A stretch of 64,000 nucleotides of DNA from Acuticoccus sp. MNP-M23 (GTDB lineage Bacteria; Pseudomonadota; Alphaproteobacteria; Rhizobiales; Amorphaceae): positions 1,116,001 through 1,180,000 of the forward strand of contig NZ_CP133480.1 of the NCBI RefSeq assembly GCF_031195445.1, given 5' to 3'. Position 1 is the stretch's first letter; each line of letters opens with the position of its first letter. The position numbers and the translations under genes were made by a program. This document shows, piece after piece, positions 17,113 through 32,007 of the stretch. The notes under the pieces were generated by a model that was given only the letters and a program-made list of their open reading frames with translations, was not told the origin of the DNA and did not search any database.

Positions 17113-18570
17113 CTACAGCTTGATGCAGATATTCCGCGTCTCTGAATAGAAATCGAACGAGTAGGCGCCGCCCTCTCGGCCGATGCCGCTCTGCTTTGCA
17201 CCGCCAAAGGCCGTGCGCAGGTCCCGCAGGTTCCAGGTGTTCACCCAGATGATGCCCGCCTCCAACGCCGCTCCAACCCGGTGCGCGCGCGACAGATCCC
17301 GCGTCCACAGCGTGGCTGCAAGTCCGTAGCGGGTGTCGTTGGCAAGGGCGATCGCCTCCGCCTCGCTGTCGAACGGGGCGATGTGGGCCACCGGGCCGAA
17401 CACTTCCTCGCGCACCGCAGCGCTGTCCTCGGCAAGGCCGGTCCAGAGCGTCGGCCGCACAAAGAAGCCGCCTTCGTGGTCGCCGGGGAGCGCAAAGGCA
17501 CTGCCGCCGGTGACAACCGTGGCGCCGTCCGCCGCAGCGGTCTCAAAATATCCCATGACCTTGGTGCGGTGTTCGGCGCTGATCAGCGGGCCGATTGTGG
17601 TGGCGCTGTCGAAAGGGGCGCCGGGCACCAGCGCCTCTGCCTTCGCCTTCAGCCCGGCCACAAATGCGTCGAAGATCGGCCGCTCCACGTAAAGCCGCTC
17701 AGTGCACAGGCACACCTGCCCGCAATTGGTGAAGGTGGAGCGCGCCGTGCCTTCGATCGCGGCCTCAAGGTCGCAATCGGCAAAGATCACGCCGGCATTC
17801 TTGCCGCCGAGTTCTGACGAGATGTCGCGCGTGCCGACCGCGGCCGCCTTCATGATCGCCTCGCCGGTGCGCGTTTCGCCGGTGAAGGTGATCGCGTCGA
17901 CATCCGGATGGGCGGTGAGGAAAGCGCCTGCGCTCCCCGGCCCGAAGCCGTGGACCACGTTGAACACCCCGTCCGGCAGGCCAACCGCGCGCATCACTTC
18001 GCCCAGAAGCGCGCAGGTGGAGGGCGTCTCCTCGCTCGGCTTGCAGACGACGGCGTTCCCGCACGCCAAGGCTGGCGCCACCTTCCACGTCATCAGGAGA
18101 AGCGGCAGGTTCCACGGGCTGATGACGGCGACAACGCCTTTGGGGCGGCGGATGGCGTAGTTCAGCGCCCCTGCGCCGTCCGGCGTCGCCATTTCGTAAA
18201 GACGCTCCGCCTCCGCGCCGATCATCTTGGCGAAGATGCGGAAGTTGGCGGCGCCGCGCGGGATATCGACGGTGCCGGCAAGGCTCAGCGGCTTGCCCGT
18301 GTCGGCAATTTCGGCGGCGAGAAAATCTTCGGCGCGGCGGTCGATCTCGTCGGCAATGGCGTTCAGCATGGCGGTGCGGTCCGCCTCGCTCGTGCGGCCC
18401 CAGGGGCCTGCCATCGCGCGGCGGGCGGCGGCAACGGCGCGGTCCACGTCGGCCTCGGCGGCTTCAGAGGCACGGGCGTGGGGCTGGCCAGTGGCGGGGT
18501 TCACCACGTCGAACCAGCGGCCGCCGCCAGCCACATACGCACCGTCGATGAAGTTGAGGATGTCGCTCAC
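17113..18570 (-). CDS. Aldehyde dehydrogenase, 2-amino/2-hydroxymuconic semialdehyde dehydrogenase type
   Basis: A 485-aa NAD(P)-dependent aldehyde dehydrogenase. The catalytic Cys lies in FTNCGQVCLCTERLYVE and the general-base Glu in ELGGKN. The GQVCLCTER signature followed by a VERPIFD-like stretch is characteristic of the 2-hydroxymuconic and 2-aminomuconic semialdehyde dehydrogenases (XylG/DmpC/AmnC). These oxidise the aldehyde left by extradiol ring cleavage. That fits the ring-cleavage dioxygenase genes at 25303-27164 in the same operon. ATG at 18570 overlaps the stop of the permease-LigB fusion gene by 4 bp. It is the last gene of the operon. Confidence 0.87.
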   Translation of the reverse strand: MSDILNFIDGAYVAGGGRWFDVVNPATGQPHARASEAAEADVDRAVAAARRAMAGPWGRTSEADRTAMLNAIADEIDRRAEDFLAAEIADTGKPLSLAGTVDIPRGAANFRIFAKMIGAEAERLYEMATPDGAGALNYAIRRPKGVVAVISPWNLPLLLMTWKVAPALACGNAVVCKPSEETPSTCALLGEVMRAVGLPDGVFNVVHGFGPGSAGAFLTAHPDVDAITFTGETRTGEAIMKAAAVGTRDISSELGGKNAGVIFADCDLEAAIEGTARSTFTNCGQVCLCTERLYVERPIFDAFVAGLKAKAEALVPGAPFDSATTIGPLISAEHRTKVMGYFETAAADGATVVTGGSAFALPGDHEGGFFVRPTLWTGLAEDSAAVREEVFGPVAHIAPFDSEAEAIALANDTRYGLAATLWTRDLSRAHRVGAALEAGIIWVNTWNLRDLRTAFGGAKQSGIGREGGAYSFDFYSETRNICIKL

Positions 18571-20597
18571 GCTTTATCTCCGTTGCCCGGCGCCAACCGG
18601 AAGGCTGCCACGGCGGCGCCTGCCCCCATGGTTGCGCCATAGGCGAGAATGTCGGCCCCCAGCGCGCGGCCCTCCACGGCACCGGCAAGAAACGCGATGT
18701 GCGCGCCGTCCCCGTCAACGCGCACCCCGGCGTCGGGCGCAAGGCTTGCGAGCGCGCCGGTGCGGCCGGCTTCCATCAGGCCCAGCACCCGGCGGTTGAA
18801 TGTATCGCTGGCGGCCGTGTCGATCGCATCGTGCGCGGCGTTCGCCTCCGGCGCTGTGGGCGGCACGGAGAGTGCGCCGACGCCCACCACGGCGATCCGC
18901 TTGCCTGCCGCCCGTGCCGCAGCGGCAACAGCCGCGCCCAGCGGTGCGGCGTCCGCCGTTGCGGGGCGGCCGATCACCACAAAAGGCGTTGATCCTGCGG
19001 CGAGCCATTTTGCGGCGAGGATGATGCCCATATCCACGGCGTAGTGGGTGTCATCCACCAGATGCGCAGCGGCATTGCGGCCTGCGCTGCTGCCAGCGAT
19101 GGCGCGGGCAAGGTCCCGGTCGATGCGCAGGTCGTAATCGATGGGGCCGAAGGCGTGGAACGTGTCATCGGTGCGCGCGCCCTTGAGGCGAGACTGCGCC
19201 ATCAGCGGCACGCCGCTGGCGGTGGTCCAGCCGTTCACCATCAGCACGATGGCATCGGGGCTGGCTGCACCGATGCGCCCGGACGCGGCACGGCTTGCCC
19301 GCGCCAGAGCCGCCCACGGCTTGGCCTCGGGCTTCAGATAGGGGAGCGGGCTTGCCGGCAGCAGGAGTGCGGCTGCAACGCCGCCGGGGCCAGTGCGCTT
19401 TTGCCGTGCAGCAGGCGGGGCGGGCGCTGCCTCGATGTCCGCACCTGCCCCCGGCGCGTCGCCGTCCCCCGGCTGCGCGACCCGTGCAGCGTTGCGGCGA
19501 TCCGCGATGAAACCGGCAATGCCGCGCGGCAGGATGAGGATCAGCGCCACCGCCGCGATGCCGAGCGTCAGCTCGCCGCCGCCCCACACGCCCACCAGAA
19601 TGCGCTGGACAATGACGAACAGCACCGCGCCGATCAGCGGCCCTTCCAGCGTGCCCATGCCGCCGGCAACCACAATGAACACCACATAGGCCGACCAGCG
19701 GATGTGGAACGCATCCGGCGGCGTGATCGTCACCTGGTCGATATAGTAAAGCCCTGCGGCCATGGCGGCCATCGGCGCGGAGATGACGAAGACCATCGTC
19801 TTCACGCGGCGAATGTCGATGCCGATGGAGGATGCGGCCTCGTTGTCGTCGCGCACCGCCGTCAGCGCCAGCCCGTAGCGGCTTTTCAGGAGCCACCACA
19901 CCACCGCCGTCGCCAGCACCACCAGAATGAGCGCCGCATAGTAGCGCTGGGTGATGGTGGTGTCGGAGGCGATTGTCATCCCCCCGCCCGCGCCCACGAC
20001 ACGCCATTCGTTGAAGATGGAGGCGACAGCCGCCGCAATCAGCCACGTTGCAACCGCAAAATAGGCACCCTCCAGCTTGAGGAGCGGCAGCGCGTAGAGG
20101 AACAGGCCGAACAGGATGATGACCCGGCGAATGTAGGCCCCGCCGAACACGTCCGCCGCCGGCACCTGCGCGATCACGATCTCGTAGATCACCCACAACG
20201 CAACGCCCACCGCGATGCCGATCCACGTGCTGCGCTGTCCCTTGCGGTCCGACACGGGTGCCGCCAGGAGCCACGCGAACAGCGCCGCAACCACGCCGCC
20301 CATCAGCATCCCGAACCAGACCGACGCGCCGAAATAATAGCTGAGGATCGCCACCGTGAAGCCGGAGAGGCCGACGTAAAGCTGCGTGCCGAAGGAGAGG
20401 AGGCCGCAGAAACCGGCAAGGAGGTTCCACGAGTGGCCTAGCACGGCGAAGATGAACACCGTCATCAGGAGCACGGTGTAGTACTGGCCGGCTTCGCCCA
20501 GCAGCCACGGCATGGCGATGAGGAAGACGAGCAGCGCCGCAAGGAGCCAGCGTCCGACGCGGGGTTCGAACAGGGTATTGAGCGTGCGGCCAATCAT
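18567..20597 (-). CDS. Fusion: branched-chain-type ABC permease (LivM) with C-terminal non-catalytic LigB-like domain
   Basis: A 676-aa protein made of two unrelated parts in one uninterrupted frame. Residues about 1-360 are a LivM-type permease with some ten membrane segments and the conserved AVRDDNEAASSIGI loop that contacts the ATPases. Residues 366-406 are an Ala/Pro/Gly-rich linker. Residues about 407-676 match the small subunit of 2-aminophenol 1,6-dioxygenase-type enzymes, sharing LPASPLPYLKPE and ILAYGATMGAGAAVAAF with the free paralogue at 25303-26115. The iron-ligand His are absent in this domain. No start codon precedes the LigB part, so it is not a separate gene. The gene overlaps livH and the ALDH gene by 4 bp each. 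Confidence 0.88.
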   Translation of the reverse strand: MIGRTLNTLFEPRVGRWLLAALLVFLIAMPWLLGEAGQYYTVLLMTVFIFAVLGHSWNLLAGFCGLLSFGTQLYVGLSGFTVAILSYYFGASVWFGMLMGGVVAALFAWLLAAPVSDRKGQRSTWIGIAVGVALWVIYEIVIAQVPAADVFGGAYIRRVIILFGLFLYALPLLKLEGAYFAVATWLIAAAVASIFNEWRVVGAGGGMTIASDTTITQRYYAALILVVLATAVVWWLLKSRYGLALTAVRDDNEAASSIGIDIRRVKTMVFVISAPMAAMAAGLYYIDQVTITPPDAFHIRWSAYVVFIVVAGGMGTLEGPLIGAVLFVIVQRILVGVWGGGELTLGIAAVALILILPRGIAGFIADRRNAARVAQPGDGDAPGAGADIEAAPAPPAARQKRTGPGGVAAALLLPASPLPYLKPEAKPWAALARASRAASGRIGAASPDAIVLMVNGWTTASGVPLMAQSRLKGARTDDTFHAFGPIDYDLRIDRDLARAIAGSSAGRNAAAHLVDDTHYAVDMGIILAAKWLAAGSTPFVVIGRPATADAAPLGAAVAAAARAAGKRIAVVGVGALSVPPTAPEANAAHDAIDTAASDTFNRRVLGLMEAGRTGALASLAPDAGVRVDGDGAHIAFLAGAVEGRALGADILAYGATMGAGAAVAAFRLAPGNGDKA

Positions 20598-21526
20598 TTC
20601 GAAAACAGCCCCTCGCGGAAGAAGGCGAGCACGCCGAGCACCAGCATGTAGCCGCCCACAAGCTGCGCCGACGGCCCGAAATAGGTGCCTGCCAGCACCT
20701 GCGTGACACCAAGCAGGATGCCGCCGATCAGGCTCCCCGGCAGCGAGTTGAGGCCGCCGATGATGACGACGCCAAACGCAATCAGGATGAACTGCGGCCC
20801 GTCGAACGGCTGGAAGGTGCGCGTCATCCCGATCATGAAGCCCGCGAGCCCCGAGATCGCCAGCGAGATGCCGAGCGCCACCGCGAAGATGTGGTCGGTT
20901 CGGATGCCCATGAGGGCGGCATATTCGGGGTCGTCTGCCGCGGCGCGGATCGCGCGGCCGGTGAGCGTGCGTTTGAGGAACAGCGTGAGGACGATAAGCG
21001 TCGCGATGGCGACGAAGAAGAAGATGAGGCGCAAGGTCGAGATCGACAGGTCCTGCGTCAGCCGGATGGCGGAGAAGGCGAGACCGTTCTTGATGCTCAT
21101 CGCGTCGGACGCGAAGATCGCGAGGAGCAGGTGCGAGATGAAGATGCCGAGACCGAAGGTGACGAGGATCGGCGCCATCAGCCCGAAATTGGCCGACATG
21201 CCGCGCCGCTCCATTGCCTGCACCGACACGCGGTTGAGGAGAAACCGCTGCAGGCCGTAGCCGATGCAGAACATGATCGGCACCACCACGATCAGCACCA
21301 GAAACGGCGGCACCGGCACCACCTGCAAGATGACCGAGGACAGATACGCGCCGACCACCAGAAACTCGCCGTGCGCGAGGTTGACGAGCCGCATCACGCC
21401 GAACGACAGCGCGAGGCCGAACGCCAGCATCGCGTAGTAGCCGCCGATCATGGTGCCGGTCAAAAGCGCGTTGGCGATGTCGATGAAGGTCCAGTACAGC
21501 GCTTCGTTGAAGGGGAGCGGCTCCAT
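20594..21526 (-). CDS. livH: Branched-chain amino acid-type ABC transporter permease, LivH family
   Basis: Inner-membrane subunit of the importer encoded at 18567-25257, 310 aa with about eight hydrophobic segments. The LivH signature GYYAMLAFGLALSFGVMRLV near residue 30 and the loop AADDPEYAALMGI near 190, which corresponds to the EAA coupling motif, identify the family. The start overlaps the livF stop and the end overlaps the permease-LigB fusion start. Importers of this class also carry aromatic acids and amides, which fits the surrounding ring-cleavage genes. Confidence 0.9.
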   Translation of the reverse strand: MEPLPFNEALYWTFIDIANALLTGTMIGGYYAMLAFGLALSFGVMRLVNLAHGEFLVVGAYLSSVILQVVPVPPFLVLIVVVPIMFCIGYGLQRFLLNRVSVQAMERRGMSANFGLMAPILVTFGLGIFISHLLLAIFASDAMSIKNGLAFSAIRLTQDLSISTLRLIFFFVAIATLIVLTLFLKRTLTGRAIRAAADDPEYAALMGIRTDHIFAVALGISLAISGLAGFMIGMTRTFQPFDGPQFILIAFGVVIIGGLNSLPGSLIGGILLGVTQVLAGTYFGPSAQLVGGYMLVLGVLAFFREGLFSK

Positions 21527-22257
21527 CAGTGCCCGCCCTTCTTGGAGCCGAAATAGGCCGCGACAATGTCTTCCTCGGCGAGCGAGCCCGGCGATCCGTC
21601 CAGCACGACGCGGCCCTCCAGCATGACGAGAACGTGGTCGGCGACGGCAAGCGCCCGGCGCATGTCCTGCTCGATGACGACGCAGGTGACGCCGGCGGCA
21701 TTCACCTCGCGCACCTTGGCGTAGATGTCGTCGACGATGATGGGCGCGAGGCCGAGCGACAGTTCGTCGAAGAGGACCAACTGCGGCGAGGACATCAGCG
21801 CGCGGGCAATCGCCACCATCTGCTGCTCACCGCCCGACATCTGGCTGACGAGCTGGTCCCGCCGCTCGGCAAGACGCGGAAAGAACTCGAACATTTCCAC
21901 AATCCGCTCGCGGGCCGCCTCGCGCACGCGCGGCAGGTGGGCGCCGACCATGAGGTTGTCGGCCACCGTCATCCGCGGAAAGAGCTTGCGGCCCTCCGGC
22001 ACCATGGTCACGCCGGTTTCAACGATCCGCTCGGTGCGGAGCTTGTCGAGCCGGCGGCCCTGAAACTCGATCATCCCCTCGATGTGGGCGGTGCGGCCGC
22101 GGTTCATCATGCCGACGATTGAGCGCAGGAGCGTCGACTTGCCGGCCCCGTTGGCGCCGATGATCGCCAGCACCTCGCCCGAATTGACGCTGAAACTCAG
22201 CTCGTGCAGCGCCTTCAGCTCGCCGTACCAGGCGCTGAGCCCCTCCACGGTGAGCAT
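21526..22257 (-). CDS. livF: Branched-chain-type ABC transporter ATP-binding protein, LivF family
   Basis: One of the two ATPases of the importer, 243 aa. Motifs: Walker A GANGAGKSTLL, signature MSGGEQQMVAIARAL, Walker B LVLFDE. The LivF-specific run ELSLGLAP follows. ATG at 22257 gives the usual family start (MLTVEGLSAWYGE). An alternative GTG at 22308 would add 17 residues and overlap livG by 8 bp, so it could be translationally coupled; neither start has a strong ribosome-binding site. Confidence 0.88.
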   Translation of the reverse strand: MLTVEGLSAWYGELKALHELSFSVNSGEVLAIIGANGAGKSTLLRSIVGMMNRGRTAHIEGMIEFQGRRLDKLRTERIVETGVTMVPEGRKLFPRMTVADNLMVGAHLPRVREAARERIVEMFEFFPRLAERRDQLVSQMSGGEQQMVAIARALMSSPQLVLFDELSLGLAPIIVDDIYAKVREVNAAGVTCVVIEQDMRRALAVADHVLVMLEGRVVLDGSPGSLAEEDIVAAYFGSKKGGH

Positions 22258-22300
22258 CGGGACGCGGCCGCCGCGTCCGGGTTTGGCAAAAAGGCTCCCC

Positions 22301-23017
22301 TTACGCACCGAGATACACCCGCCGTACGCCGGGGTCGGCGATCACCACGTCCGGCGCGCCTTCCGCAATGATCTCGCCGCCGGCAAGCGCGATCAGCCGG
22401 TCGGTCGCCTTCAACATCGTCTTCATGACGTGCTCGATCCAGACCACGGTGATGCCCGCGCCCTTGATGCGGCCGACCAGTGCGATGAAGTCGTCCACCT
22501 CGCCGTCCGTCAGGCCCGCTGCCACCTCGTCGATGAGGAGAAGGCTGGGGCGGGTGGCGAGCGCGCGGGCAAGCTCATGCCGCTTGCGGTCGAGCAGCCC
22601 CAGCCGGCCCGCCAGAAGCGGTGCGCGCGTGGTGAGGCCGGTGAAGGCGAGCACCTGCGCCACCCAGTCGTCGCATTCCGCCTCGTCGAGATCGCCGCCG
22701 AAAATGGCCGCAACGCGCAGGTTCTCCGCAACCGTCATGTGGGTGAACGGGCGGGGCACCTGGTAGGTGCGAGCGATCCCGGCGCGCGCTCTGGCATGGT
22801 TGGGAAGGCCCGTCACGTCCAGTCCGTCGAAGCGGATGCGGCCCTTGTCGAGCGGCACGTTGCCTGAGAGGAGGCCGAACAGCGTGGTTTTTCCCGCGCC
22901 GTTCGGGCCGATGATGCCGACCACCTCGCCCTCGGCCACGGTGAAGGAGATATCGGCCGCGATCTTCACGGCGCCGAACGCCTTGTGCAGACCTTCTGCT
23001 GCCAGCAGCGCCGCCAT
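22301..23017 (-). CDS. livG: Branched-chain-type ABC transporter ATP-binding protein, LivG family
   Basis: Second ATPase of the importer, 238 aa. Walker A is GPNGAGKTTLF, Walker B is LLLIDEVAAGLT and the switch region reads VVWIEHVM. The signature sequence is non-classical: LGLLDRKRHELARAL stands where other LivG proteins have a YGQQR-type motif, a variant also found in a LivG subgroup. ATG at 23017 overlaps the stop of the alpha/beta hydrolase gene by one base (TGATG). Confidence 0.88.
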   Translation of the reverse strand: MAALLAAEGLHKAFGAVKIAADISFTVAEGEVVGIIGPNGAGKTTLFGLLSGNVPLDKGRIRFDGLDVTGLPNHARARAGIARTYQVPRPFTHMTVAENLRVAAIFGGDLDEAECDDWVAQVLAFTGLTTRAPLLAGRLGLLDRKRHELARALATRPSLLLIDEVAAGLTDGEVDDFIALVGRIKGAGITVVWIEHVMKTMLKATDRLIALAGGEIIAEGAPDVVIADPGVRRVYLGA

Positions 23018-23955
23018 CAGGATGCGGTTCGCATGAGGCTGGCAACGCTCGGCACCGCGCTGCGGCATCCGGTCGGAACCCGGCGCGGCGTGTGGCCCAT
23101 GAAGTCGAAGATCGCACGGCAGAGCGTGCTTGCGGGATCGGCAAGCTCGGTAATGGCAGTGAAATGGTTGCGGCCGAGCTGGGGGAGAAAGCTCGCGCGG
23201 TTGCCAGCCTTCCGCCACGCGGCAAGAAACTCGTCCGACTGGCGCAGGAACTCGGACGGCTCGTCGGAGCCATAGGTGAGGAGCGTTGGCGGCTGGCCAC
23301 CTCGCACATGGGCGGCAGGGCTGTGGGCGGCAACGTCACCGTCCGTCAGCCGCAGATCGGGCTGGACGAAGGAGAGGAGTTTGATGGGTTCGAGGTCGAA
23401 CAGGCCGCTGATGGGGATGCCACCGCGGATGAGCCCGGGGGGCAGGCCGTAGTCGCGCGCCCAGTCGGTCAGCATCATCTCGGCGGTCAGATGCCCGCCT
23501 GCGGAATGGCCACAGACGTAGATTTCGCTCTCATTGCCACCGATGTCTTTGGCATGGCGGAAGGTCCATGCCACCAGCGCGCGCATCTGGCGGATGATCT
23601 CGCCCATGGTGGCCTTCGGCGCCAGCGTGTAGTTGGCGACGACGGTGGTGATCCCGGCGCGCTGCGGGCCTTCGGCGCAGAACGAGAAGTCGCCCGCCGA
23701 AAGCGACCGCCAGAACCCGCCATGGATGAAGATGAGGATCGGCGCCCCGCGGCGATCCGCCGGAAAGATATCGGCGTATTCGTCCACCGTCGGCCCGTAG
23801 CGCACGCCGAGTCTGCACCTTGTGCGCGCGCGAAACTCGGCCGAACCCGTCACGAACTGGCGCGCGTAGGCCATGAAGTCGGGCACGGCGGCCTCGACAT
23901 CGTAAGCGGCGTCCAGATCACGCTGCGTGGTGAAGTTACGGTAGAGCGCTGTCAT
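23017..23955 (-). CDS. Alpha/beta hydrolase, kynurenine formamidase (arylformamidase)-like
   Basis: A 312-aa serine hydrolase. The oxyanion motif HGGFWRS (about residue 78), nucleophile elbow GHSAGGH (Ser about 151), Asp in YGSDEPSEF and His in GRNHFTAI complete the triad. The HGGFW plus GHSAGGH pair is typical of bacterial arylformamidase/N-formylkynurenine formamidase-like enzymes. In an operon for cleavage of an aminated ring, a role in releasing the amine from an N-formyl or N-acyl aromatic compound is plausible. It sits between the solute-binding protein gene and livG, so it is physically embedded in the transporter genes. Confidence 0.82.
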   Translation of the reverse strand: MTALYRNFTTQRDLDAAYDVEAAVPDFMAYARQFVTGSAEFRARTRCRLGVRYGPTVDEYADIFPADRRGAPILIFIHGGFWRSLSAGDFSFCAEGPQRAGITTVVANYTLAPKATMGEIIRQMRALVAWTFRHAKDIGGNESEIYVCGHSAGGHLTAEMMLTDWARDYGLPPGLIRGGIPISGLFDLEPIKLLSFVQPDLRLTDGDVAAHSPAAHVRGGQPPTLLTYGSDEPSEFLRQSDEFLAAWRKAGNRASFLPQLGRNHFTAITELADPASTLCRAIFDFMGHTPRRVPTGCRSAVPSVASLMRTAS

Positions 23956-24006: not shown

Positions 24007-25257
24007 TTATTGCTGGTAGAGCTTCATCTCGCCGGTGATCTTCACCTCCGGGTAGACTTCGTTGAAGACGTTCTGCTTCACGAGGTTGCCGTCTTCGTCC
24101 TTCTGCCACTGCGCGCCGCCGAGCGGGGACACACCGAAGTTCTGGTCGTTGAACTTGATGTTGCCGACGACAGTGTCGAGGTCGGTCTCGTGGATCGCCT
24201 TGAGGAGTGCGTCGCGATCGGTGGTGCCGGCACGCTGGAGCGCGTCGAACAGCACGTCCCAGGAGGCGTCGGACCAGGCGAGCGGCGGCGAGTACATCTT
24301 GCCGGGGTTCTGGCTTTCGTAGGCTTCCACCAGCGCGGCGCCGTCATAGTCGCCATATTTCGACGTGCCGGGGAAAGCGGGGGACCAGAAGTTCACCGAC
24401 AGGATGTCGATGCCGAAATCGCCCAGTGCGCGCATCGGCTCCGGATAACCCGTGCCCTTGTCGATGATGTACATCTTCGGCTTGAAGCCGGCCTGCGCAG
24501 CCTGCTGCAAATAGTTCTGCAGGTCGGGCGGGGCGAGGACGCCGGTGACGACTTCCACGCGGTTGCGCTTGAACTGGTTGATGATCGCCGAGAAGTCCGG
24601 CAGGCCCTGCTCGAAGCGGCCCGGGTCGACCGGGCTCCAGCCCTCGCCCTTGTAGGCGGGGTCGAACAGGGAGGCGAACACCACGCCGTCCGGGTCGTTG
24701 GGGTAGAGGTAGCCGATGCGGCCGTTGAAGTCGCCCGGCAGCGCCTTGATCATGCCGATGTGGTTCTTGACGAGATCCGGCACCGAAAAGAAGAAGTGGT
24801 GCGTGTACTTGTATTCTTTCGGCTTGCCGTCGGGGCCGTAGAGCCAGGCCTCGATGGGCGTGTCGGAGGTGATGCAGGGGACCTCGTAACGCTCGCAAAG
24901 GTCGGACGGGGGGTTGGTGGTGTCGGGCGTGCCCTGCGCCATCACCACGTCGACCTTGTCGTCCAGGATCGCACGCTGGGCGGCTTCGCCGGCGCCGGCC
25001 GCGGTGCCCTTGGAATCGTAGATCGTGTATTCGATCTTGCACTTCTGGTCGCCGACCTGGAGGCCGCCGGCCTCGTTGATCGGGTCGACCTTGTTCTCGT
25101 CGAGCCATGGGGTTTCGCGACCCATGTCGAGCAGCGGGCCGGTGATCGGAACGACGCGGCCGACCTTGATCACGCATTCGTCCTGCGCGGCGGCAGGCAC
25201 CGCGCTTGCGGCCAGCATGGCGGCCGCAGCCGCCACTCCCGTTACAGTCAATCTCAT
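24007..25257 (-). CDS. ABC transporter solute-binding protein, LivJ/LivK (periplasmic-binding type I) family
   Basis: Periplasmic receptor of the branched-chain-type importer, 416 aa. The signal peptide ends AAAQ near residue 25. The mature protein begins with IKVGRVVPITGPLLDMGRE, the usual opening of the family, and continues with the VDVVMAQGT and PCITSDTPIE segments of the first lobe. It is longer than leucine-binding proteins (about 370 aa), as is common for receptors of aromatic or amide ligands. It lies directly downstream of the dioxygenase genes and is followed by a strong hairpin. Confidence 0.9.
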   Translation of the reverse strand: MRLTVTGVAAAAAMLAASAVPAAAQDECVIKVGRVVPITGPLLDMGRETPWLDENKVDPINEAGGLQVGDQKCKIEYTIYDSKGTAAGAGEAAQRAILDDKVDVVMAQGTPDTTNPPSDLCERYEVPCITSDTPIEAWLYGPDGKPKEYKYTHHFFFSVPDLVKNHIGMIKALPGDFNGRIGYLYPNDPDGVVFASLFDPAYKGEGWSPVDPGRFEQGLPDFSAIINQFKRNRVEVVTGVLAPPDLQNYLQQAAQAGFKPKMYIIDKGTGYPEPMRALGDFGIDILSVNFWSPAFPGTSKYGDYDGAALVEAYESQNPGKMYSPPLAWSDASWDVLFDALQRAGTTDRDALLKAIHETDLDTVVGNIKFNDQNFGVSPLGGAQWQKDEDGNLVKQNVFNEVYPEVKITGEMKLYQQ

Positions 25258-25302: not shown

Positions 25303-26115
25303 TTAGGGGCGAAACTCCACCACCGCGGCGCCGGACCCGTAGGTGGCGCCATAGGCATGGATGCGTCCGCCGTTGATGCGGCCGCCAAGGGCGCCGAGGA
25401 TCCAGGCGAAGTGCTTGAACCCCATGTCCGCCTTGGCATTTTTCGCGTAGTCCTTGGAGAATTCGACGAGGTCGTTGCCGCCGCCGCGCTCCAGCCGCGC
25501 CAGCATCTTGCGGTTCCACTCGTCATCGTTGGCGGTGGCGATGCCGTCGGTCGCAATGTCGATCTCATGGCGGAAGATCGAGCCCGAGAGGCCGCCGACG
25601 CCCACCACCGCAACGCGGCGGCCCATCCTGTCCGCGGTTTTTGCGGCCATCTCGCCAAGGCGCATGGTGTCCTCGAACGAGTGGTAGAGGTTGTTGGCGC
25701 CGATGGTCAGCGGAATGCGGCTGCCGGGGTTGAGGAACCCGTTGGCGACGATGGTACCGGTGTCGATCGGGAACTTGTCATAGTCGACGCCTTTGGAGGT
25801 GATGCCGATGCCTTTCGAGCCCTCCACGCACGCTGCGGCGAGCTCGACGTCGCAGGTCAGCTCGTAGGGCAGGTCGCCATATTCGTACCAGTTCTCGTCC
25901 ACGTGCACGTCGTTGAACGAGCGGCGGAGCTGCCACAGCTCGTCCAGCACCGCCATCCACTGGGTGGAGTAGACGAGAATGGTGTCCGGCCGGGAGGCGG
26001 CGAGGTTGCGCCCTGCCGCGCGGCAGGCCTGCGCGATGACGCTCCAGGGCGGGTTCTCGGGCTTCAGGTACGGCAGCGGGGAACCCGGAACGATAAAGGC
26101 GGAAACGACGCTCAC
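25303..26115 (-). CDS. LigB-superfamily dioxygenase small (non-catalytic) subunit, 2-aminophenol 1,6-dioxygenase AmnA-like
   Basis: A 270-aa member of the class III extradiol dioxygenase (LigB) fold. The segment holding the iron-ligand His in active subunits reads VPGSPLPYLKPE here, and the second ligand region reads VYSTQWMAV, so no metal site is visible. This matches the structural subunit of 2-aminophenol 1,6-dioxygenase, which pairs with a catalytic subunit. That partner is encoded 8 bp upstream (26124-27164). A homologous domain is fused to the permease at 18567-20597. The C-terminus IHAYGATYGSGAAVVEF is shared with that fusion. Confidence 0.85.
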   Translation of the reverse strand: MSVVSAFIVPGSPLPYLKPENPPWSVIAQACRAAGRNLAASRPDTILVYSTQWMAVLDELWQLRRSFNDVHVDENWYEYGDLPYELTCDVELAAACVEGSKGIGITSKGVDYDKFPIDTGTIVANGFLNPGSRIPLTIGANNLYHSFEDTMRLGEMAAKTADRMGRRVAVVGVGGLSGSIFRHEIDIATDGIATANDDEWNRKMLARLERGGGNDLVEFSKDYAKNAKADMGFKHFAWILGALGGRINGGRIHAYGATYGSGAAVVEFRP

Positions 26116-26123
26116 GATGGCTC

Positions 26124-27173
<1,050 letters not shown>

Positions 27174-27635
27174 CTATTCGGCGCTGGTGGGCGACTGGGC
27201 GATGTAGGCCGTGGCCCGGATTTCGATCAGTAGCTGCGGATGCGGGAGCTGGTGCACGGCAACTGTGGTGCGCGCCGGCCCGCTCTCGGAGAAATACTGG
27301 CCGTAGACTTCGTTGTAGCCGCCGAAGTCGTTCATGTTGACGAGGAAGGTCGACAGCTCGACGAGGTTTTCAAGGTCGCCGCCCGCTTCCTGTAGGACGG
27401 CGCGCACATTCTCGATGCACGCTGCGGTCTGCTCGCGAATGTCGAGCGTGGTCGTGCCCATCTCGTCAACGCTGGCGCCGGCGATGGTGTTGTCCTTGCG
27501 GCGCGAGCTGGTGCCCGACACGAACACCAGCGGCCCCGCCCGGCGAAAATGCGGGTAGGCGCCGCGCGGCGTGGCGAGGTGCTTGACCACCCGTCCGTTG
27601 GCGTCCCGCGTCTCGGGTGCGGCGATGTCGGTCAT
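27174..27635 (-). CDS. 2-aminomuconate deaminase-type RidA protein (AmnD/NbaF-like)
   Basis: A 153-aa RidA-fold enzyme. The combination VSGTSSRRKDNTIAGASV, NMNDFGGYNEVYGQYF and VAVHQLPHPQLLIEI is that of 2-aminomuconate deaminases, which release ammonia from the ring-cleavage product of aminophenols or hydroxyanthranilate. Key residues are present: Arg R122 in PARTT and Glu E138 in LIEI. ATG at 27635 follows the stop of the other RidA gene by 4 bp. The dioxygenase catalytic subunit gene follows 9 bp downstream. A close relative of this protein is fused to the IclR regulator at 30844-32007. Confidence 0.88.
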   Translation of the reverse strand: MTDIAAPETRDANGRVVKHLATPRGAYPHFRRAGPLVFVSGTSSRRKDNTIAGASVDEMGTTTLDIREQTAACIENVRAVLQEAGGDLENLVELSTFLVNMNDFGGYNEVYGQYFSESGPARTTVAVHQLPHPQLLIEIRATAYIAQSPTSAE

Positions 27636-27639
27636 TCGT

Positions 27640-28038
27640 TCAGGCTCCGGAAGGTGCGGCGCGCCGCGCCAGCGTGAAATCGGCTTCGACCGCGGCGCCG
27701 ATGGGCAGCGCGCTGACGCCGACAGATGTGCGCGCGGGCAGCGCGGCGTCATCGTCGAAAAAGGCGTCCCAGATTGTGTTGATGGCGCCGAACGCAGCAA
27801 AATCGGTGACGAAAATGTTGGCGGCGAAAACGTCGCGCCGGGAAAAGCCATTCGCCGCGAGGAACGTGCCAAGATTTGCAAGGATCTGACTGAACTCGGC
27901 GGCTGCGCCACCTTCGGCAAGTTTGCCGGACGCAGGGTCGAGACCGACCATGCCGGCTGTCCGCACCATGCCGGCCGCTTCCACCGCGGGGGCATAGCGG
28001 AACTTGGGTGCAGGAAGGCCGGTGAAATCGAGTGCCAC
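27640..28038 (-). CDS. RidA family protein (imine deaminase-like)
   Basis: A 132-aa RidA-fold protein, distinct from the neighbouring aminomuconate deaminase type. The active-site motif LPARTSVGV keeps the Arg, and a VEADF strand keeps the Glu, so hydrolysis of a reactive enamine or imine is plausible. It starts at GTG 28038, with GAGG seven bases upstream. It is the first gene of the ring-cleavage/import operon. Two 11-bp direct repeats lie in the divergent region upstream. Confidence 0.85.
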   Translation of the reverse strand: MALDFTGLPAPKFRYAPAVEAAGMVRTAGMVGLDPASGKLAEGGAAAEFSQILANLGTFLAANGFSRRDVFAANIFVTDFAAFGAINTIWDAFFDDDAALPARTSVGVSALPIGAAVEADFTLARRAAPSGA

Positions 28039-28094: not shown

Positions 28095-28198
28095 ACCGAA
28101 TATTGAGATGGACGCGTCGCAAGTGGGTGCCTACTGTGCCTGAACGGATGGCCAATCGTTAAAGCCCCGGCCATCACTCGCGAATGCGGAGCCGGTCC

Positions 28199-30823
28199 AT
28201 GGATGTTCTCCCCGCCGTGATCATGACGCTTGTCATCGTCGTGATCGTCATCGTCATCTTGTGGGTGTTGTTCTGGTGGCTCTACCGCCGCGCCACCAAG
28301 GAGGTGGCGTTCGTCCGCACCGGCCTCGGCGGGCAGACGGTGGTGCAGAACGGCGGCGCCTTCGTCATCCCCGTGCTGCACGACCTCACCCCGGTCTCCA
28401 TGTCCACCAACCGGCTGGAGATCACGCGGGAGGACGAAACCTCCATCATCACCCGCGACCGGATGCGGATCGACGTGACCGCCATGTTCTACGTCCGCGT
28501 CGCCAGCAGCCCCGAGGCCATCGCGCTGGCCGCACAGGCGCTCGGCTCCAAGACCGGCCGGCCCGAAGCGATGCGCGAGCTTCTGGAAGGCCGCTTCGTC
28601 GACGCGCTGCGCAGCGTTGCCGCCGAGATGACCATGGAGGAGCTGCACGAGCAGCGGGGCGACTTCATCCGCCGCGTGAAGGCGCACGTTGCCGCCGAAG
28701 TGGAGCAGACCGGCCTTGAGCTGGAGTCCGCGTCGCTCACCCAGCTCGACCAGACCAGCCGCGAATTCTTCGACCCCAACAACGCGTTCGACGCCGAGGG
28801 CCTGACGCGCCTGACGGCCGACATCGAGTCCCGCAAGCTGAAGCGCAACGCCATCGAGCAGGACAGCCGCGTCAACATCCAGACCAAGAACCTGGAGTCA
28901 GAGACCCGCCGGCTGGAGCTGGACAAGCAGGAAGAATACGCCCGCCTCGCCCAGCAGGAAGAGATTGCCGTGCGCCGCGCCGAGCAGGGCGCCACCATTT
29001 CGTCCGAGGAGGCGTCCCGCCGCCGCTTCTCCGAAGAGGCCCGCGTCGCCGCCCAGCTCTCCATCGACCTTGCCACAGCAAGAGCCGACCAGCAGCGCGA
29101 GGTGGAACGCCTCACGGTGCAGAAGGCCGTGGAGCGCGAGAACGCGCAGACCCGCCAGGCCATCGAGGATGCGCGCACCGAGTCCGAACAGATTGTCGAG
29201 CTCAGGCGGATCGAGCGCGAGAAGCAGACGGCGATGCACCTGGCCGCCAAGGACTCCGAGGTGGCGCGCGCCACCGCCGAGCGCACCCGCGAGTCCGAGG
29301 AAGCCCGCGTTGCCGCCGAGCTGGAGGTGCGGATCGCCACCCTGAAAGCCGACGAGCAGCGCGAGGTCATCCGCCTCGCCACCGAGCTTGCGGTGGCGCA
29401 GGAGAAAATGCGCATCCGCCGTGAGGTGGAAAACGTCACCATCGAGACAGATGCTGCCGTCCGCGTCCAGCGCGCCGCCAGCAACAAGGATGTCGCGGTG
29501 GAAGAGGCCGCGCGAAAGGCCGAGGTTGCCAAGGCGGAAGCCGAGAACCGCCGCGAGGCCGAAGAGGCTCGTGCTGCCGCCGACGCGCAGATCCGCGTCG
29601 CCAACGTGAAGGCGGACGAGGAGAACGAAATGGCCCGCATGGGGGCGGAGGCGGCCATTGCGGCTCAGCGCGAGAAAAACCGCGAGGCGGTGGACGGCGT
29701 CACCACCGGCGTCGACAGGGCGATCCGCCTTGCGCGGATTGCCAAGGAGCATGCCGTTGCCATGGAGGAGGCCGCCAGCCTCTCCGAGGTTTCGCAGGAG
29801 CAGGCCCGCCGCCAGCGCGAAGCCGATGCGGTCACCCTCACCACCGGCAACGAGCTGGAGCGGATCCGCGTCGAGCTCGCCCGCCTGCTCGACGTTGACA
29901 AGGAGGAGGCCGACCGCCTCGTCGCGGTCGCCCGCACCAGCCGCAAGGAGGCCGTCTCCCGCGCCGACATGGACTCGCGCCTCGCCATCGACACGCTCGC
30001 CATCGAGCAGCAGCGCCAGCTGATCGAGAGCGAACACCTGAAGGACGTCGCGCTGTCGGAAAGCGCCAAGGCACAGATCGAGGCGCTGGCGGACGTGGAG
30101 CGCGCCCGCCGCTCGCTGGTGGAAGCCGAAGAGGCGCTCACCCTCCTGCGTGCCCGCGAGCGGGAAGAGCGCGAAAAGGTCATCGCGCTCATCAAGGCGA
30201 ACTCCGCCGCCGAGAGCGACGTTGCGGCGCTTCTGGTCGCCGCCGAAGCCCGCGTGCGCGAGGCGACCGACACCGCGAAAGCCAACGAGGTGGAAACCCG
30301 CGCCAGGGCCGCGCGGATCACCGCCATGGCCGAGGCCGAGGCGGTCGCCGACAAGGCCCGGATCGACACCGACGCCCACCAGCGCGCGGTGGACGCCGAA
30401 GCCGTCCGCGCCCTCACCGAGGCGGAAAACACAATGTCCGACGAGCTGATGGCGCTGAAGGTGCGCCTCTCCGTCATCGACCACCTGAAGGACATCATCC
30501 GCGAAAGCGCCAAGCCGATGGAGAACATCGACGATATCCGCATCGTCGAGGTCAACGGCCTTGTCGGCGGCCAGCTCGCCCTTTCCGGCGGCGGCATGAT
30601 CGGTGCCGACGGCAACCCCGTTGGCCCGCAGAACCTGCCCGATCAGGTGGTCAACAGTGCGCTGCGCTACCGCACGCAAGCGCCCGTGGTCGACCAGCTC
30701 CTGAAAGAGGTCGGCCTTGGCAAGGCAGACGCCAGCGGCGTTTCTGCATTCCTCAAGGAAGGTCTGTCAGGCGAGGACCCGGAGGCGCCGACCCCGCCGC
30801 CTGCCAAGCCTGAAAACCCTTAA
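28199..30823 (+). CDS. Flotillin-like SPFH/band 7 protein with expanded repeat coiled coil
   Basis: An 874-aa membrane-anchored scaffold protein. Residues 3-30 form a strong membrane anchor, 35-200 an SPFH/band 7 domain, about 210-760 a highly charged Ala/Glu/Arg-rich coiled coil, and the tail has a QLALSGGGM motif and a Pro-rich end. Flotillins and YqiK are about 450-560 aa; the excess comes from three consecutive 88-residue repeats (residues 278-365, 366-453, 454-541). Flotillins organise membrane microdomains and assemble partner proteins. ATG at 28199 has GGAG eight bases upstream. It is divergent from the ring-cleavage operon and 20 bp ahead of the IclR fusion gene, probably an operon. 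Confidence 0.85.
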   Translation: MDVLPAVIMTLVIVVIVIVILWVLFWWLYRRATKEVAFVRTGLGGQTVVQNGGAFVIPVLHDLTPVSMSTNRLEITREDETSIITRDRMRIDVTAMFYVRVASSPEAIALAAQALGSKTGRPEAMRELLEGRFVDALRSVAAEMTMEELHEQRGDFIRRVKAHVAAEVEQTGLELESASLTQLDQTSREFFDPNNAFDAEGLTRLTADIESRKLKRNAIEQDSRVNIQTKNLESETRRLELDKQEEYARLAQQEEIAVRRAEQGATISSEEASRRRFSEEARVAAQLSIDLATARADQQREVERLTVQKAVERENAQTRQAIEDARTESEQIVELRRIEREKQTAMHLAAKDSEVARATAERTRESEEARVAAELEVRIATLKADEQREVIRLATELAVAQEKMRIRREVENVTIETDAAVRVQRAASNKDVAVEEAARKAEVAKAEAENRREAEEARAAADAQIRVANVKADEENEMARMGAEAAIAAQREKNREAVDGVTTGVDRAIRLARIAKEHAVAMEEAASLSEVSQEQARRQREADAVTLTTGNELERIRVELARLLDVDKEEADRLVAVARTSRKEAVSRADMDSRLAIDTLAIEQQRQLIESEHLKDVALSESAKAQIEALADVERARRSLVEAEEALTLLRAREREEREKVIALIKANSAAESDVAALLVAAEARVREATDTAKANEVETRARAARITAMAEAEAVADKARIDTDAHQRAVDAEAVRALTEAENTMSDELMALKVRLSVIDHLKDIIRESAKPMENIDDIRIVEVNGLVGGQLALSGGGMIGADGNPVGPQNLPDQVVNSALRYRTQAPVVDQLLKEVGLGKADASGVSAFLKEGLSGEDPEAPTPPPAKPENP
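29030..29821 (+). repeat. Three tandem 264-bp (88-codon) repeats in the flotillin-like gene
   Basis: Units start at 29030, 29294 and 29558 and are each exactly 264 bp. Each begins with a codon run for S/A-EEAR-A-A and ends with a T/N/Q-R-R/Q-E-type motif. Protein-level similarity is clear (EEARVAAQLSIDLATARAD, EEARVAAELEVRIATLKAD, EEARAAADAQIRVANVKAD at the same offset). Length 88 equals eight 11-residue turns, consistent with hendecad coiled-coil packing. The DNA has diverged, so the duplication is not recent. Confidence 0.75.
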
Positions 30824-30843: not shown

Positions 30844-32007
30844 ATGGCGACTCCCAAGAACAACTCGGTCATCAAGGCCTTCGACATTCTCAAGCTGTTC
30901 CTGTCGGAGACACGCCCGCTGTCGCCGCAGGAGGTGGCCGAGGCAACGGGACAGACCCTTTCCACCACCCACCGCTTCCTCCTGACGCTGGAAGAGGTCG
31001 GCGCGCTCGACCGGACCCCCGGCCCGCGCTACCACGTCGGCATGCTGATTTCCGAGCTTGGCCAGCAGGCCATGCGCACCGACATCGTGGCGGAACGCGC
31101 GCGCGGGACTGTCGACCATCTGTGCCAGAACCTGCGTGAAACGGTGTGTCTCTCGCTGTTCCACGGACCGGAAGCGCGGCCGCTGGTGTGGCAGGAAGCA
31201 AACCGCCCCCTCGCCTTTCGCATCCGCAGCGACCTCGACCGCCCGCTCCATGCCTCCGCCACTGGCAAGTTGCTGATGGCCTGCCTCAACCCGCTCGCCC
31301 GCGAGGAGGCGCTCGAGAAGATCGCGCTTCCCGCGCTCACGCCCGAAACGCGGACCGACATGCGTGAGGTACGGCGCGAGGCCCAGCGCATCGCCCTGGC
31401 CGGTCTGGCGGAGGATTGCGGCGAGATGGAAACCGGGCTCGACTGCCTCGCCGCGCCCGTCACCGGCGCCAACCTTGCCCCGCTCGGCGCGCTGGTGGTG
31501 AGCGCGCCCTCGGCCCGCCTTAGAAACGGCGACCGGGCCGACATCATCGCCCGCCTGAAAAGCGCCGCGCAGGCCCTGTCCAGCCAGCTCGTCATCGAGA
31601 ACAAGACGCTGGCGCACAAGGCGCGGCCGCGCGGAAGCTTCCCCCACGTCAAGCGGGTCGGCAACCTCGCCTTCGTGTCGGGCACAAGCTCGCGCCGGCG
31701 GGACGACACATTTGTCGGCGCCAGCGTGAATGAGACGGGCCGGGTGCTGATCGACACCGCCGTCCAGGCCGTCGTCACGCTCGGCAACATCGCCGATATC
31801 CTTCTGTCGGTGGGCGCGGGCCTCTCCAGCATCGTGAAGCTCGATGTCTACCTCACCCAACCGGACAAAGCCGACGCCGTGTACGCGGCGCTGGAGCGGC
31901 ACGGCCTTCCCGTGCCGCCGGTGTGCACGGTGACCGCCGTCAAGGGGCTGCCGCACCCCCATCAGGCGGTCATGATGAAGGCCGTGGCCGTGGTCGGTCC
32001 GCGCTGA
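30844..32007 (+). CDS. Fusion: IclR family regulator with C-terminal RidA (2-aminomuconate deaminase-type) domain
   Basis: A 387-aa protein. Residues about 5-65 are an IclR winged helix-turn-helix (SVIKAFDILKLF, STTHRFLLTLEEVG). Residues about 80-255 are the IclR effector domain, including the usual HASATGKLLMA. Residues about 259-387 are a complete RidA domain whose PRGSFPHVKR and FVSGTSSRRRDDT stretches closely resemble the aminomuconate deaminase-type protein at 27174-27635. The catalytic Arg is replaced by Cys (C361, PVCT) and the strand Glu by Met (AVMMKAVAV), so it probably binds rather than converts a ligand. IclR proteins are normally about 250-270 aa. It likely controls the divergent ring-cleavage operon; that is inference. 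Confidence 0.88.
   Translation: MATPKNNSVIKAFDILKLFLSETRPLSPQEVAEATGQTLSTTHRFLLTLEEVGALDRTPGPRYHVGMLISELGQQAMRTDIVAERARGTVDHLCQNLRETVCLSLFHGPEARPLVWQEANRPLAFRIRSDLDRPLHASATGKLLMACLNPLAREEALEKIALPALTPETRTDMREVRREAQRIALAGLAEDCGEMETGLDCLAAPVTGANLAPLGALVVSAPSARLRNGDRADIIARLKSAAQALSSQLVIENKTLAHKARPRGSFPHVKRVGNLAFVSGTSSRRRDDTFVGASVNETGRVLIDTAVQAVVTLGNIADILLSVGAGLSSIVKLDVYLTQPDKADAVYAALERHGLPVPPVCTVTAVKGLPHPHQAVMMKAVAVVGPR

Follow-up and report, generated by a model that had tools for sequence, protein, structure and literature searches.

A 64,000-nucleotide stretch of the Acuticoccus sp. MNP-M23 genome (contig NZ_CP133480.1, positions 1,116,001 to 1,180,000; hereafter the window, whose numbering is used unless another locus is named) contains an ATP-binding cassette (ABC) importer operon in which the gene for a LivM-type permease continues, within one reading frame, into a domain homologous to AmnA, the alpha subunit of aminophenol 1,6-dioxygenase. 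This LivM-AmnA' fusion gene, AmnA' being the fused domain, lies on the minus strand (18567-20597) and runs from an ATG at 20597 through 676 amino acids without a stop. Pfam places BPD_transp_2 (PF02653) at residues 43-356 (E 1.9e-26, above cut-off) and LigB (PF02900) at residues 428-662 (E 5.6e-10, above gathering), which bears out the preliminary description of a LivM permease, an Ala/Pro/Gly linker and a complete LigB-fold domain in a single frame. The permease part (residues 1-370; 19488-20597) has ten hydrophobic segments (Kyte-Doolittle) and is followed by an alanine-, proline- and glycine-rich linker of about 36 residues (about 371-406; 19380-19487) and by the AmnA-like domain (18570-19379). 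No in-frame ATG, GTG or TTG occurs from residue 356 to the start of the domain, again as described before, and V407, at the domain border, is coded by GTT; the absence of a start codon from the linker rules out a second gene with its own start in the window. The start of the fusion gene overlaps the stop of livH (ATGA) and its stop overlaps the start of the aldehyde dehydrogenase gene (GTGA); a 1044-amino-acid open frame at 18567-21701 is merely the fusion frame extended upstream through livH. Third codon positions are rich in guanine and cytosine over the permease, and this content drops somewhat in the linker and fused domain.

The operon combines this BPD_transp_2 permease with a substrate-binding protein, two ATPases and LivH, the company on which we class it as LivM-type. 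It scores below the NCBIfam cut-offs for both LivM (88.5 against 366 bits) and UrtC (78.4 against 296.2 bits) and, judged by sequence, is a member of the LivM/UrtC superfamily that matches neither named transporter. The permease part has no relative among solved structures at E <= 0.01, and an AlphaFold2 model of the full-length fusion (5 sequences) was unusable, with a mean pLDDT of 45. The fused domain is 36% identical over 263 aligned codons to the free AmnA encoded in the same operon (25303-26115, minus strand; 3vsg_A, E 1.5e-95), and its first match among solved structures is 3vsg_A, the alpha chain of 2-amino-5-chlorophenol 1,6-dioxygenase (E 1.5e-39), the beta chain 3vsg_B following at E 6.5e-12. 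Its AlphaFold2 model (11 sequences) reaches a mean pLDDT of 85 and a pTM of 0.88, and in a fold search with it five alpha chains rank first, the best matches including 8ihg_B (TMq 0.85) and 3vsg_A (TMq 0.86). By sequence comparison and predicted fold, the domain is homologous to the alpha subunit AmnA of 2-aminophenol 1,6-dioxygenase and not to the catalytic beta subunit, and the homology to the neighbouring AmnA-like subunit proposed in the preliminary description holds.

The genome has three places with LigB-family matches at E <= 0.001, namely the fused domain, free AmnA and the catalytic beta subunit AmnB (26124-27164, minus strand; 3vsg_B, E 4.4e-148). AmnB carries H14, H63 and E252, which we take to be the iron ligands and which are invariant in all 15 aligned AmnB sequences. 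At these columns the window fused domain has A, G and D, and it is without the two-His-one-Glu set of a catalytic LigB-type (type III) extradiol dioxygenase. Free AmnA subunits have G and Q in the two histidine columns in 15 of 15 cases, and D (14 sequences) or E (one) in the third. Across ten fused and 15 free AmnA sequences, no histidine occurs in the H14 column, the H63 column has one only in the fused copy of locus L022, and glutamate appears in the E252 column only in the fused copy of Ensifer (L014) and the free copy L017a. Because all 15 free AmnA lack both histidines, the absence of iron ligands is expected of an alpha subunit and is not a sign of decay: the domain had been called catalytically dead, which is right as to the missing ligands, but this is nothing special to the fusion.

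Counting the window, 14 genomes or records have the fusion, each time in this importer operon, and its recurrence in 13 others rules out an assembly or frameshift artefact; relatives with this operon do share the fusion, a point on which the preliminary description had staked its reading. On plasmid pC of Ensifer adhaerens M8, the same operon (substrate-binding protein, hydrolase, two ATPases, LivH) ends in a 679-amino-acid "hypothetical protein" that consists of LivM and an AmnA domain. Scanning contigs with an alignment of two fusions revealed four more (L019-L022); the scan used only two short patterns, so further fusions are possible. A scan with the window domain alone found nothing, probably because the window copy is so diverged. 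Whole-genome searches added fused copies in genomes G461, G580, G673 and G750. Seven of the 385 genomes of a class sample match the AmnA domain at E <= 1e-12; five of them, including the window, have it fused, and G476 and G533 encode AmnBA unfused. In the family of G750, eight of 11 genomes have the fusion (G777-G780 being new), one has AmnBA only and two gave no match. Matches in a phylum sample of 398 genomes number five, comprising the window, unfused AmnBA in G932, G971 and G1098 and a weak single hit in G462, and in an order sample of 397 genomes eight match at E <= 1e-6, only the window strongly. The Ensifer fusion matches 405 plasmid records, with 80% query coverage only in Ensifer's own.

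Fused queries account for most of the fusions. The permease part by itself matches five genomes of the class sample at E <= 1e-60, all in long fused frames, and the families of G1105 (1 of 81 genomes) and G1103 (3 of 24) yield only genomes already known to be fused; overall, all nine genomes matched at this threshold are fused and were already known as such, with the qualification that in the two larger sets only the best 5 or 24 candidates at most were scored per genome, so that unfused orthologues may escape. An unfused LivM, 47-51% identical, lies on plasmids of Shinella sp. H4-D48 and Rhizobium sp. BG4, in the order substrate-binding protein-LivG-LivF-LivH-LivM and followed directly by a hydrolase gene; a search of the two plasmid records revealed no AmnA. 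Ten loci (L015-L018, L046, L047, L090-L093) have AmnBA without this LivM in the fetched stretch. In thirteen of the 14 fusion genomes a free AmnA gene and a LigB-family gene lie side by side, in G1104 on a different contig from the fusion, and no free AmnA was found in G1102 (L019). Among the genomes examined, the presence of both this LivM and AmnBA therefore meant fusion in 13 of 13. The covalent link extends over several bacterial families, and its named members are alphaproteobacteria. The preliminary description knew of no precedent for such a transporter, and aimed full-text searches do not contradict it: no ABC-importer permease with a dioxygenase subunit appears among the matches listed, subscription papers and preprints being outside the scope of the searches.

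In one genus, g206, single frames of 1013-1055 amino acids (L042, L044, L045, L085, L086; the last two measured stop to stop) join the permease and AmnA', through a second alanine- and proline-rich linker, to an alpha/beta hydrolase. This triple LivM-AmnA'-hydrolase frame is present in six of the six g206 genomes whose contig continues, and Pfam recovers all three domains in each of the three frames tested (L044, L045, L085). G779 has the same AmnA'-hydrolase frame (L087), on two contigs, and in G580 and G780, the latter from another genus, the contig stops after AmnA'. The HGGYW, GHSAGGH and NHFT motifs of the hydrolase are intact in all five complete triple frames. The fused hydrolase is homologous, with 45-47% identity, to the product of a separate window gene (23017-23955, minus strand; PF07859; motifs HGGFW and GHSAGGH), an esterase- or kynurenine-formamidase-like enzyme with lipase 1 (9n8r), an esterase (2pbl) and a kynurenine formamidase (4e11) among its nearest solved relatives; it is a separate operon gene likewise in L014, L020 and L022. 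From these relatives, a fair guess would be that the imported compound is an N-acyl or ester form of an aminophenol. The hydrolase is joined to permease-AmnA' in the five complete g206 frames, and on the Shinella and Rhizobium plasmids (L048, L049) a hydrolase gene comes directly after LivM; AmnA' may have been inserted between the two.

A divergent flotillin gene (28184-30823, plus strand in the window; PF15975, PF01145) adjoins the operon in 12 of 12 fusion loci whose sequence reaches that far (window, L014, L020, L022, L042-L045, L085, L086, L088, L089); L019 and L021 end before this position and are not counted. No flotillin was found in the fetched stretches of 12 comparison loci, made up of the ten AmnBA loci and the two unfused-LivM loci. 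The corresponding Fisher test (p 7.4e-7) treats related loci as independent and uses hand-chosen comparison loci, and is indicative only. In Ensifer, the flotillin gene lies beside the fusion operon although amnBA is about 14 kb away. The window flotillin is 879 amino acids long, against 690 for the Ensifer copy, and BLAST pieces of the former overlap on the latter, which suggests internal repeats in the middle part of the window protein.

The rest of the operon, also on the minus strand, includes, downstream of the fusion gene, a semialdehyde dehydrogenase of the 2-hydroxymuconic type (17113-18570; TIGR03216, 800.7 bits, cut-off 693.25), which by its context probably acts on 2-aminomuconic semialdehyde. 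Upstream of the fusion gene are a LivH-type permease (20594-21526; PF02653), a LivF-type ATPase (21526-22308; PF00005), a LivG-type ATPase (22301-23020; PF00005; start set by the Ensifer homologue) and, beyond the hydrolase, a periplasmic substrate-binding protein (24007-25257; PF13458); beyond the AmnA and AmnB genes lie two RidA-family stretches (about 27198-27590 and 27601-28017, within 27174-28017). Next to the flotillin gene, on the plus strand, is the probable regulator, an IclR protein with a C-terminal RidA domain (30844-32007; PF01614, PF09339, PF01042). A homologue accompanies this system in Ensifer and resembles it along the full length (48%), and a similar frame occurs in the Novosphingobium locus L017; we guess that it may sense an imine- or enamine-type product of the pathway. 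AmnB itself measures 338-350 amino acids in the window, L014, L020 and L022, 295-320 in unfused operons and 317-322 in g206, the longer C-terminal tail thus being found at four fusion loci and not at every one. Public records name AmnB/AmnA a "tRNA U-34 5-methylaminomethyl-2-thiouridine biosynthesis protein" (L014 33032-34887; L018 10001-11783), probably a misannotation.

How far AmnA' has retained the features of an alpha subunit differs among the fusions. Of 64 columns invariant in 15 free AmnA, examined in ten of the 14 fusions (all except L085, L086, L087 and L089), 64, 64, 64 and 63 are kept in L042-L045, 63 in L020, 62 in L021 and 60 in L019, values close to those of a free AmnA omitted from the set (64/64 to 64/68). 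Ensifer keeps 55, the window 33 and L022 28. For 31 alpha-specific columns the picture is the same: the first seven of these fusions keep 29-31, Ensifer keeps 25, the window 12 and L022 eight. In the six g206 genomes (15 pairs), the ratio of nonsynonymous to synonymous substitution rates (dN/dS) lies between 0.044 and 0.135 in the fused domain, between 0.056 and 0.131 in free AmnA and between 0.042 and 0.075 in AmnB, and the fused domain there is under purifying selection like free AmnA. These ranges exclude six pairs with the more distant L089 (fused 0.218-0.403, LivM 0.186-0.404, free AmnA 0.158-0.307), and the NG86 method used is crude in GC-rich genes.

With moderate confidence, we favor the view that the importer serves as the anchor of an alpha subunit to which AmnB is recruited, so that import is coupled to ring cleavage. 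Paracoccus albus has a LivM homologue whose annotation gives an N-terminal permease part and an ATPase, from which we infer that the C-terminus of the fusion is cytoplasmic. AmnA' at this end would bind AmnB, replacing or accompanying free AmnA, and would hold the ring-cleaving enzyme, in one genus also the hydrolase, at the mouth of the importer. The structural account excerpted from PMC10470539 gives the dioxygenase as a tetramer of two alpha/beta heterodimers joined through their beta subunits, neither subunit being soluble when expressed alone. The second alpha site of the tetramer would be left for free AmnA or another importer. On a more speculative view, the beta-beta junction means that a pair of AmnB chains could link two importers, or an importer and a free AmnA, and such bridging would itself cluster importers. 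The preliminary description proposed that the fused copy docks the catalytic subunit onto the importer. The alpha-specific residues kept by relatives speak for this, and the loss of 31 of the 64 invariant positions in the window makes docking less certain in the very species in which it was proposed.

Several observations weigh against the anchoring model. The numbers of AmnA-invariant columns kept by the window and L022 are near the level of AmnB itself (26-28 of 64 in three checked), and of the 31 and 36 positions lost, respectively, 27 are common to both. Differences between window and Ensifer at the three codon positions (0.47, 0.47 and 0.66 for the fused domain, 0.20, 0.15 and 0.58 for free AmnA) point to relaxed constraint on the fused domain, which in the window is 26% alanine. 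In the tree, the window and L022 domains are sisters (95/93) on branches of 2.63 and 4.12 changes per column and fall among the free AmnA of their own lineage (85/89), apart from the other fused domains, a placement that is unsure because of these long branches; the ten fused domains do not form one clade (three changes), and a single clade is not rejected (approximately unbiased test, p-AU 0.369). Moreover, amnBA stands apart from the fusion operon in Ensifer, seven other genomes of the window's own genus gave no match when searched, and the free AmnA retained in nearly all fusion genomes gives AmnB a soluble partner anyway. The sisterhood and the common losses indicate that a shared change of function, or a relaxation, probably preceded the split between the window and L022 lineages. 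The window copy is a poor example of its own family, with the fold kept and many alpha-specific positions gone; the domain is probably eroding in this lineage and may now be a weak or changed anchor.

These data would also be accounted for if the domain of the window (and of L022) were the decaying passenger of an old functional fusion, the importer and free AmnBA being sufficient. The lost invariant positions, the long branches, the weak excess of changes at third codon positions and the odd composition of the alanine-rich window copy all agree with this, but the frame is intact and tightly overlaps its neighbors, the fold is predicted with confidence and PF02900 is over its cut-off, in L022 only just (27.8 against 26.3 bits). 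We consider this explanation unlikely. Some other ABC importers are trans-inhibited by C-terminal domains, and the fused domain might similarly be a regulatory sensor whose dead LigB pocket binds a cytoplasmic substrate or product and slows or gates the importer. A fold retained in spite of the absent iron ligands would suit such a role, and a change from binding a partner to sensing would be in keeping with the alpha-specific sites that the window and L022 copies have lost while retaining the fold. However, seven of the ten fused copies keep nearly all alpha-specific invariants, seemingly beyond what ligand sensing needs, and the hydrolase added in g206 looks enzymatic rather than regulatory, which makes the sensor rather improbable. 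Lastly, release of AmnA' as a second soluble alpha subunit by linker proteolysis or internal initiation, the fusion being merely a means of co-expression, is very improbable in spite of the long linkers (29-57 residues) and of in-frame GTG or TTG codons near the domain start in several relatives, as the window linker is without an in-frame start codon, free AmnA is already encoded in 13 of the 14 genomes and release gives no reason for a hydrolase on the same chain in g206.

Anchoring of AmnB by the importer can be extended, tentatively and as no more than one possible scheme, to an entry complex in which AmnA' captures AmnB, in some species together with an unmasking hydrolase, within a flotillin patch, import, deacylation and ring cleavage proceeding vectorially and outrunning the formation of picolinate. 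A scaffold role of flotillins in bacteria is described in PMC5718613, and already on the favored view the anchored enzyme would probably be located in a membrane patch organized by flotillin. On that view, an o-aminophenol-type compound would, after import, lose its acyl group, undergo ring opening and reach the dehydrogenase before cyclization of the unstable semialdehyde to picolinate; we infer both the hand-over from the importer and the identity of the substrate. According to excerpts of PMC10470539, the ring-cleavage product spontaneously becomes picolinic acid when it is not taken up by the dehydrogenase, and co-localization in a microcompartment is proposed by the authors as a way to avoid this. 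An excerpt of PMC3790839 reports that picolinic acid is formed during growth on 2-aminophenol and inhibits growth.

The closest known systems include the AmnBA enzymes (CnbCbCa; 2-aminophenol and 2-amino-5-chlorophenol 1,6-dioxygenases; PDB 3vsg, 8ihg, 7txy), to whose alpha subunit the fused domain is homologous and alike in fold. In the solved enzymes this subunit is a separate chain, whereas here an extra copy lies inside an importer permease. The Comamonas CNB-1 plasmid has in common with the window the AmnB-AmnA pair, the semialdehyde dehydrogenase and RidA proteins. It also carries, between its alpha and dehydrogenase genes (L015 9799-10818), a broken relative (73% identity) of the window substrate-binding protein, as if the CNB-1 amn genes had derived from an importer-linked operon. 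LivM of the HAAT-type importers for branched-chain amino acids or urea has the same full permease domain and the same substrate-binding protein-LivG-LivF-LivH-LivM operon; the C-terminal extension is an ATPase in the Paracoccus albus protein and here a catabolic enzyme subunit, followed in one genus by a hydrolase. SulP anion transporters fused to carbonic anhydrase are a case of a transporter that covalently carries an enzyme acting on its substrate. They unite a secondary carrier with a catalytic enzyme, in contrast to the present case, in which an ABC importer bears a partner subunit that is itself non-catalytic and to which the catalyst would be recruited. The ARO bacterial microcompartment of Actinobacteria, as far as excerpts of PMC10470539 describe it, confines the same dioxygenase and dehydrogenase chemistry within a cytoplasmic protein shell, unlike the anchoring to a membrane importer, perhaps with flotillin, proposed here.

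These proteins form an apparently undescribed family of ABC-importer permeases carrying an aminophenol-dioxygenase alpha subunit, of which the triple fusion and the flotillin linkage are the most unusual traits. Channeling from a transporter to a catabolic enzyme has frequently been proposed and is rarely visible in a genome; here, a covalent link between the two recurs. If the anchoring model is true, the importer would do at the membrane what the aminophenol microcompartment is proposed to do within its shell, namely cope with an unstable ring-cleavage product. The conserved fusion suggests that a reactive aromatic compound is processed at its point of entry into the cell.

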